This document shows, one piece after another, positions 24,290-26,347 of a DNA stretch of 64,000 nt (positions are counted from its first letter, which is position 1; each line of letters starts with the position of its first letter). Both the position numbers and the translations under genes were made by a program. The notes beneath the pieces were generated by a model. That model was not told the DNA's origin. It ran no database searches and saw only the letters and a list, made by a program, of their open reading frames with translations. Source of the DNA: Pseudomonadota bacterium. GTDB lineage: Bacteria > Pseudomonadota > Gammaproteobacteria > Xanthomonadales > Rhodanobacteraceae. The stretch spans positions 1 through 64,000 of the forward strand of contig JAFEDX010000001.1 of NCBI GenBank assembly GCA_018241365.1. The letters run 5' to 3'.

Positions 24290-24718
24290 TTACCAGCTGT
24301 AGCTGCCCTTGGGTTTCTGCGTTGGCGTCGCTCCCAGCGCGGCAGCGGCCTTGGCGGCGTCCTGTTGCGCGCTGGAGAGGGAATCCGACTTCAATCCGCT
24401 TTGTGCGTCGGCCAATGCACTCTGCAGTTTGCCGTGCAGGGCCTGGTCGCTGGCGGAATCGGCGATTGCACCATCGCCCTGGTTCTGGCAGGGGTTGCCG
24501 GCCTTGGCATCGAAGCCCGTGCCCTTGGGGCCGACGAGGCAGTTGATCACGTGGTGCAGATGCGTGTGCGCTTCCGCGAGCGTCGTGGCGCTCTGCGCCA
24601 TCAGCGCATGTGCGTGGGCGGTGCTCACTTCGTTGCTGGCACTGCCTTGCGCGAACGCCGCGAATGAAAGACCGGTCGCGAGTGCGCCGGCGATACCCAT
24701 TGCCAGAAGCTTCTTCAT
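24290..24718 (-). CDS. Exported His-rich small protein of unknown function
   Basis: 142 aa, with signal peptide MKKLLAMGIAGALATGLSFAAFA. The mature protein begins with a His-rich helix (STAHAHALMAQSATTLAEAHTHLHHVINCLVG), then a loop KGTGFDAKAGNPCQNQGDGAI whose two Cys could form a disulfide, then an Ala-rich helix. The spaced histidines suggest metal or heme binding, but I recognise no family. It lies about 98 bp downstream of the multicopper oxidase gene on the same strand, so a shared role in periplasmic metal handling is possible. Tight AGAGAG Shine-Dalgarno upstream. Confidence 0.8.
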   Translation of the reverse strand: MKKLLAMGIAGALATGLSFAAFAQGSASNEVSTAHAHALMAQSATTLAEAHTHLHHVINCLVGPKGTGFDAKAGNPCQNQGDGAIADSASDQALHGKLQSALADAQSGLKSDSLSSAQQDAAKAAAALGATPTQKPKGSYSW

Positions 24719-24815: not shown

Positions 24816-26303
24816 TCAAACGGTGTCGAACACTGCCATGAAGCCGAAGTCCATGTGCTGCTGCATGTGGCAGCAGAACACCGCGCGGCCCGGCTGGGCG
24901 GCGGTGAAATCGACCTCGGTGGTCTGGAATGGCGGCACCAGCACCACGTCCTTGATCACGCCCGCGATCGGATGGCCATGGATGCTGGTGAGTTCGAAGG
25001 AATGCCGCAGCAGGTGCAGGGGATGGATGTCGCCGCTGGCGTTGCGCAGGCGCAGGCGGTAACGCTTGCCGAATTGCAGCTTGCGCGTGACCGGCATGGT
25101 CTTCCAGTCGTACGGCACGCCGTTGATCGCGTACAGGTCGAAGCCGTCCGCCGCGCTCTGGCGCGCGGTGAACAGCATGTCGATCACTTCGTCGGGCGTC
25201 TGCAGCATGCGCGCCGGATCGGCGAACAGCCGGTAGTCCCACTTGAACGCGGGTGGCGCTTGCCATTGCGGTTCGCCGCTGGCGCCCGCGTACTCGACCA
25301 CGATGCCCATGCCGGCTTCGCGGTCGGCGTCGGCGGTGTCGCCCAGCACCCACACGCCGGGATGATCCATCTGCACGATCGCGGACACCCGCTCGGACGC
25401 GCCCAGCCACAGCACCGGCACCGTGGCTGGATGTGGCACCGGATTGCCGTCCAGTGCGACGACTTCGAACACGTGGCCGGGCAGGGCCAGGCTGCGGTTC
25501 TCGGTGGCACTGGCGTTGAGCACCTGCAGCAGCACGCGTTCGCCGCGCTTGACCCGGATCGGCTCGCCGTAGCCCAGCGACCTGCCGTTGATCGCGAACG
25601 CCCCGTACGCGAGTTCGTAGCCCGGCGGCACCTTGCCGGCGTTTGGATCGGCGTTGGCGGCGATGGTGACCAGCGGAATCTCCATGCCATCCGGTGCCAT
25701 GAACGGCGTGTCGTCGTCCATGCGCGTGAGATAGGGCTGGAATTCCTTGAGGGTCAGGAACACCTCGCGGTCGTGACGGCCGGGGTTGTGCGCAGGCTCG
25801 ATGAACACCGGCCCCACGAGGCCGCTGTAGAGCCCGCGCGAGAGATCGGCGCCCGCGCGCACGAGGCTGTGGTACATGCGCAGCCCGGATGGCCCGGGCG
25901 TGAACACTTCGCGCTTGTGGCCACGTGCCGGCACCGGCGGGGTGCCTTCTTCGTCGGCGCCATCCACGCTGGCGGGCAGATGCTGGCCGTGCCAGTTCAC
26001 CTGCTCGTCGTGATCAGTGTCGTTGAAGATGTCGAGGGTGACCGGCCGGCCCTCGCGGAAGCGCAGCAGCGGGCCCGGGAAATCGCCGTTGTACAACGTG
26101 GTCGAGATGAACTTTTCCGGCGCGAGCTCCAGGATTCCGGTGGCAATGCGCAGGCTGTAGTCAGCCTTGCCGCCCAGATCCGCCGCCGATGCCGCCGACG
26201 TGGCAGCGTGCGCCATTTGCGCGCCGAGGGCTTCCGCACCGGGAAACAGGCCCGCCGCGAGCGCGGTGAGGCTGGCGGTCTTCAGGAAATCGCGGCGATC
26301 CAT
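24816..26303 (-). CDS. Multicopper oxidase homologue with intact type 1 site and depleted trinuclear site
   Basis: 495 aa, three cupredoxin domains, exported by Tat (MDRRDFLKTASLTALAAGLFPG). The four copper motifs read NWHG (103-106), MYHSL (143-147), HPLHLLRH (427-434) and CCHMQQH (477-483). Canonical forms are HWHG, WYHSH, HPxHLHGH and HCHxxxH. Type 1 ligands H427, C478 and H483 remain, and Phe488 sits at the axial position. Each motif has lost one trinuclear histidine (N103, L147, L432, C477). The fold is otherwise well conserved, with LPGHVFEVVALDGNPV and DVVLVPPFQTTEVDF. It may be an electron-transfer or folding protein, not an oxidase. ATG 26303 begins the Tat signal. Confidence 0.88.
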   Translation of the reverse strand: MDRRDFLKTASLTALAAGLFPGAEALGAQMAHAATSAASAADLGGKADYSLRIATGILELAPEKFISTTLYNGDFPGPLLRFREGRPVTLDIFNDTDHDEQVNWHGQHLPASVDGADEEGTPPVPARGHKREVFTPGPSGLRMYHSLVRAGADLSRGLYSGLVGPVFIEPAHNPGRHDREVFLTLKEFQPYLTRMDDDTPFMAPDGMEIPLVTIAANADPNAGKVPPGYELAYGAFAINGRSLGYGEPIRVKRGERVLLQVLNASATENRSLALPGHVFEVVALDGNPVPHPATVPVLWLGASERVSAIVQMDHPGVWVLGDTADADREAGMGIVVEYAGASGEPQWQAPPAFKWDYRLFADPARMLQTPDEVIDMLFTARQSAADGFDLYAINGVPYDWKTMPVTRKLQFGKRYRLRLRNASGDIHPLHLLRHSFELTSIHGHPIAGVIKDVVLVPPFQTTEVDFTAAQPGRAVFCCHMQQHMDFGFMAVFDTV

Positions 26304-26328
26304 GGTCGACTCCGGCGGCAATGCAAAT

Positions 26329-26347
26329 GAGAATGATAAACGATTGC
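26329..26347 (-). promoter_or_regulatory. Fur-box-like sequence upstream of the multicopper oxidase gene
   Basis: GAGAATGATAAACGATTGC matches 13 of 19 positions of the GATAATGATAATCATTATC consensus. It lies 26 bp upstream of the oxidase start, within the 130 bp divergent region shared with the MpaB-like gene. It is weak on its own and could reflect chance AT-richness. Confidence 0.35.

Follow-up and report, generated by a model that had tools for sequence, protein, structure and literature searches.

The locus analyzed here raises the question of what a multicopper oxidase (MCO) homologue could still do when half of the histidines that normally hold its trinuclear copper cluster have been replaced, and whether such a loss is real in the first place. 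The window, i.e., the whole stretch of 64,000 nucleotides from a member of the Rhodanobacteraceae, encodes a protein of this kind, with the following features.

24816..26303, (-) strand: coding sequence of the variant three-domain MCO homologue, 495 aa (translation, Pfam, Foldseek)
26199..26303 (extent approximate), (-) strand: predicted N-terminal Tat-type signal, MDRRDFLKTASLTALAAG... (sequence)
25986..25997, (-) strand: motif 1, NWHG (residues 103-106); T2 ligand histidine lost to N103, T3 ligand H105 present (translation, alignment, CueO ligand sets of PMC6155172)
25863..25877, (-) strand: motif 2, MYHSL (residues 143-147); T3 ligand H145 present, T3 ligand histidine of the other copper lost to L147 (translation, alignment)
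25002..25025, (-) strand: motif 3, HPLHLLRH (residues 427-434); T1 ligand H427 and T2 ligand H430 present, T3 ligand histidine lost to L432 (translation, alignment)
24855..24875, (-) strand: motif 4, CCHMQQH (residues 477-483); T3 ligand histidine lost to C477, T1 ligands C478 and H483 and T3 ligand H479 present (translation, alignment)

Translation confirmed the four motif readings and the residue numbers (N103, L147, L432, C477, H427, C478, and H483) given in a first-pass annotation of this DNA, as well as its statement that the gene carries no stop or frameshift; the frame is open over all 495 aa. The product starts with the twin-arginine sequence MDRRDFLK, of which MDRRDFL is kept in relatives, and contains the three Cu-oxidase cupredoxin domains of the three-domain MCO superfamily (Pfam Cu-oxidase_3, Cu-oxidase, and Cu-oxidase_2, all above cut-off); the best 50 Foldseek matches of a structure model of moderate quality (pLDDT 66) were exclusively MCOs and laccases. 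Profile scores lie far below the family cut-offs for CopA (113.8 vs. 479) and CueO (72 vs. 525). The T1 ligands H427, C478, and H483, correctly described before as kept, do not vary between the window protein and 29 intact relatives, nor do D114 and D485, and F488 is the same residue as in the intact relatives; from known motif spacing, we take D114 to be the equivalent of CueO D112 and F488 to occupy the axial position. Four of the eight histidines of the trinuclear cluster are replaced.

Two ways in which this loss could be illusory had been named at the outset, namely a misread sequence and motifs that shift onto intact histidines, and a comparison with other MCOs had been proposed. Intact relatives within the genus (75-79% identity) carry HWHG (HFHG in L024), FYHTH, HPLHLHRH, and HCHMQxH; relatives as distant as 47-48% identity have the same ligands, and the same histidines are also intact in three relatives from Acidobacteria. 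In each case, the odd residue of the variant falls on a column where all 29 intact members have histidine, and the motifs align ungapped to relatives that are 75-80% identical; no shift to other histidines is therefore possible. While the relatives compared first, all intact, suggested a loss in a single strain, a family-wide search identified a second altered protein, L016 (G107:C6:113206-114690), in another species of the genus. L016 is 80% identical to the window protein, and its motifs (NWHG, MYHSL, HPLHFLRH, and CCHMQQH) show the same four ligand losses; all 29 other aligned family members are intact. Sequencing error or frameshift can thus be ruled out, because a second, independent genome carries the same four changes. 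That genome (G107) also encodes an intact paralogue, L049. The four changes hence occur in more than one species and mark a variant clade, as had been predicted, of which two species were found.

Departures from conservation are concentrated at the cluster. Of 158 columns without variation among the 29 intact rows, nine are changed in the window protein, four of them belonging to the eight cluster histidines (hypergeometric p about 3e-4), and five are altered in both variants, i.e., the four ligands and column 475, which lies two residues from C477. The pattern CCHxxxHMD[FY] matched only the window protein and L016 in 233 family genomes, with no third variant member, and in a sample of 398 genomes of the order, in which G107 was not included, a T1-plus-CCH pattern yielded only chance-level matches besides the window. 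No intact MCO copy was found in the window genome, the assembly of which is 96% complete.

With regard to the age of the variant, the two proteins differ by a dS of about 0.75, and their dN/dS is 0.17, while intact pairs average 0.20; relative to uvrA, dS is 1.18 for the variant pair, and intact pairs have 1.22 +/- 0.15. (In G166 and G107, the uvrA matches L088 and L092 contain one TAG and one TAA although the frame is open over nearly its full length, which may be an artifact of the alignment ends.) Because the dN/dS is low and the uvrA-relative dS matches that of intact pairs, the altered site has persisted since roughly the time at which the two species separated, and the protein has been kept functional under purifying selection. 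These values and the four losses shared by two species bear out the initial view that the changes are not random decay. Seven states are common to both variants and absent from the 29 intact rows (N103, M143, L147, L432, A474, V475, and C477), each of them within or next to a copper motif. Support for the variant clade, which comprises only two sequences, is 100/98, dropping to 76/33 once the motif columns are removed; a single origin is thus likely but not certain, and the rest of the protein hardly sets the clade apart. Gene conversion of motif blocks between the variants was considered and rejected as far as long tracts are concerned, since sliding identity revealed no long near-identical tract.

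In CueO, the T2 copper is bound by H101 and H446. Of the two T3 coppers, Cu3 has the ligands H143, H448, and H499 and Cu2 the ligands H103, H141, and H501 (PMC6155172), and the T2 pair of Fet3p, H81 and H416, is in line with the CueO H101/H446 assignment (PMC4203857). In CueO numbering, the variant has lost H143 (L147), H448 (L432), H499 (C477), and H101 (N103) and has kept H103 (H105), H141 (H145), H501 (H479), and H446 (H430). Because the equivalents of all Cu3 ligands are replaced and those of all Cu2 ligands are present, nothing is left of one T3 site, while the other is complete; these sites correspond to T3 alpha and T3 beta, respectively, in Fet3p (PMC4203857). The variant is thus missing one entire T3 site along with one of the two T2 ligands, with the other T3 site and the T1 site complete. 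The earlier description of one lost ligand per motif holds insofar as the four losses fall one in each motif, but a sharper pattern is the removal of an entire T3 site and half of the T2 site; random loss of four of the eight cluster histidines would also produce such a combination, a full T3 set and one T2 ligand, in 4 of 70 cases. In native CueO carrying the G304K mutation, Cu3 is weakly occupied, at about 20% (PMC6155172), and the Cu3 site can therefore be nearly empty in a folded MCO.

We consider the chances to be about even that the variant is a redox protein with a T1 copper and a single mononuclear copper, unable to reduce O2 to water. In such a protein, T1 would take up electrons and pass them over the kept Cys478-His479 bond to a mononuclear His3 copper where a T3 copper used to be (H105, H145, and H479), while the place of the lost copper would be filled by two leucines (L147 and L432) with a cysteine (C477) beside them. 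Four-electron reduction of O2 should not occur, because a full trinuclear cluster is needed for it, and the earlier claim that O2 reduction at a trinuclear site is lost should hold with four of the eight cluster histidines replaced. Its companion claim, that the protein is a blue-copper carrier without trinuclear O2 chemistry, agrees with the intact T1 ligands but would go too far in leaving an electron carrier only, as a complete His3 T3 site remains. A second mononuclear copper site probably survives, because this three-histidine T3 site is intact, and the protein thus need not be a blue-copper carrier only. Copper in the remnant site is something that we infer, because the three T3 histidines still present are conserved no more strongly than the protein is on average.

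The surroundings of the gene were compared between genomes, with two further features of the window being relevant.

24290..24718, (-) strand: small exported protein, 142 aa, downstream neighbor of the MCO gene (synteny)
26323..26341, (+) strand: conserved upstream element, Fur-box-like, GCAAATGAGAATGATAAAC, 20-38 bases before the MCO start

The window variant occupies a locus where several congeners carry an intact MCO. The exported neighbor, which has 7 His in 142 aa, including a HAHA...HTHLHH stretch, and no Pfam or NCBIfam match, had been proposed as a His-rich partner of the variant. This proposal did not survive comparison; the neighbor is not a variant-specific partner, because it also adjoins intact MCOs (in L064-L068, L001, and L002), and in G107 it lies beside the intact copy (locus C24), with the variant copy elsewhere (C6). 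It is part of the ancestral locus, not of the variant. The Fur-box-like element matches the consensus at 13 of 19 positions, a score equaled in 0.5% of shuffles, and is found at the same position upstream of most intact orthologues in the genus and, in weaker form, before L016; it suggests iron-linked regulation of the MCO family. The element also overlaps a TATCAT/TATAAT -10-like sequence.

Among known proteins, the closest are the intact MCOs of the Rhodanobacteraceae (L002, L004, and L006/L049; 75-79% identity in the genus), which share the Tat start, T1 site, and axial Phe with the variant, and the locus with the window copy, but have all eight cluster histidines. MCOs of the CueO/CopA type are likewise Tat-exported and built of three cupredoxin domains, with T1 in domain 3 and the cluster at the interface of domains 1 and 3; they differ from the variant, in which a complete T3 site and a T2 ligand are gone. 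No natural MCO with such a loss pattern was found in the literature searched, which covered subscription papers in small part.

Other readings of the ligand losses differ mainly in what becomes of the remnant cluster. If only T1 were loaded, the protein would shuttle or store electrons or copper, with the remnant T3 site empty or structural. The invariance of the T1 ligands and of F488 fits this, and loss of half the cluster ligands may destabilize metal binding there; however, a full T3 ligand set and one T2 ligand are present in both species, and a site free of constraint would be expected to drift over a dS of about 0.75, which makes this a rather unlikely explanation, if one to be taken seriously. 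A more radical departure would be a pseudoenzyme heading toward a structural role, for which copper is no longer needed. SufI, insect MCORP, and plant SKU5 are MCO relatives without T1 (PMC2661564, PMC4203857), and they show that ligands can be lost and the fold kept; SufI/FtsP, MCORP, and SKU5 have, however, lost T1 and nearly all T3 ligands, whereas the variant has T1 and one T3 set complete, with 7 of 11 ligand residues in all. The loss of T1 and retention of at most two cluster histidines that define a SufI/FtsP-type pseudoenzyme are not seen here, four cluster histidines being present, and the dN/dS of the variant is as low as that of intact relatives; we regard a structural fate as improbable. 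The cluster could conversely have been rebuilt with Cys477 and Asn103 as new ligands, still holding two or three metals. Both residues are identical in the two variants and have side chains that could bind metal, but the other two replacements are leucines, unable to bind, and Cys is shorter than the lost His imidazole; this is the least probable of the readings that we considered.

A last alternative, a nitrite- or NO-reacting copper enzyme, takes its appeal from the surroundings of L016. In G107, genes for a cytochrome c, a NorB-like COX1 protein, a 2OG-oxygenase, and the variant MCO follow each other on one strand (L062 15204-19894, on G107:C6), COX1/NorB-type and cytochrome c domains were found in the cluster, and the variant MCO starts about 95 bases past the 2OG-oxygenase gene; an operon ending with the variant is possible. 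The window genome has two 2OG-oxygenase copies (L126 on G000:C124, and one on G000:C137), one of them about 1 kb from NorCB, and the recurrence of an extra copy near the NorB-like gene in G107 hints at an oxygenase-Nor association. Nor-type genes are present in both variant genomes, but the window variant does not lie in such a cluster, and the NorB-like gene is, within the genus, restricted to G107. A role as the missing nitrite reductase was rejected, as both genomes already carry a NirK-type protein and there is no gap to fill; the one in the window genome (L074 1018-3048, G000:C200) has 676 aa and combines a membrane-like N-terminal part with a cytochrome c at the C-terminus. The NirK profile (TIGR02376) scored the variant at 31.3 bits vs. 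a cut-off of 296.3, and the catalytic Asp and the T1-domain ligands kept by NirK (HxxDxH and HC) are absent from the variant, which has HPLHLL and CCH. Nitrite or NO chemistry is thus quite improbable, only slightly less so than a rebuilt cluster.

NirK is nevertheless instructive as a comparison for the preferred reading, a T1 copper with one mononuclear copper. It keeps T1 and one His3 copper, with H100, H135, and H306 as the ligands in AcNiR (PMC5571812), and, if the remnant site is loaded, the variant would resemble it in having these two coppers joined by a Cys-His pair. However, NirK is a two-domain trimer, whereas the variant has three domains. The two also differ in the T1 domain, where NirK retains the His at +5 and the one preceding Cys (HxxDxH and HC) and the variant the His at +3 and the one following Cys (HxxHxL and CCH). 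The window genome's own NirK-type protein, with HSIDLH and YHCG, is the complement of the HPLHLL and CCH of the variant in this respect. The variant would accordingly be pictured as a two-copper redox protein of NirK-like architecture that has kept the opposite ligand set in the T1 domain. As a tentative proposal, which we hold possible but by no means probable, a natural MCO may have become an enzyme with T1 and one mononuclear copper, having given up exactly one T3 copper together with half of the T2 site, which would amount to a NirK-like architecture of independent origin with complementary ligands and a reaction other than that of O2 to water. Whatever that reaction, the function of the variant is probably not the conversion of oxygen into water.

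The ligand-deficient MCO relatives of which we found descriptions have lost T1 and taken on structural roles; the variant keeps T1 and one complete T3 site. It represents a natural, selected, and stable counterpart of the copper-depleted mutants used to study cluster function, for which the intact paralogue in G107 provides a matched control within the same genome, and it may serve as a model of the route from trinuclear oxidases to mononuclear copper reductases.
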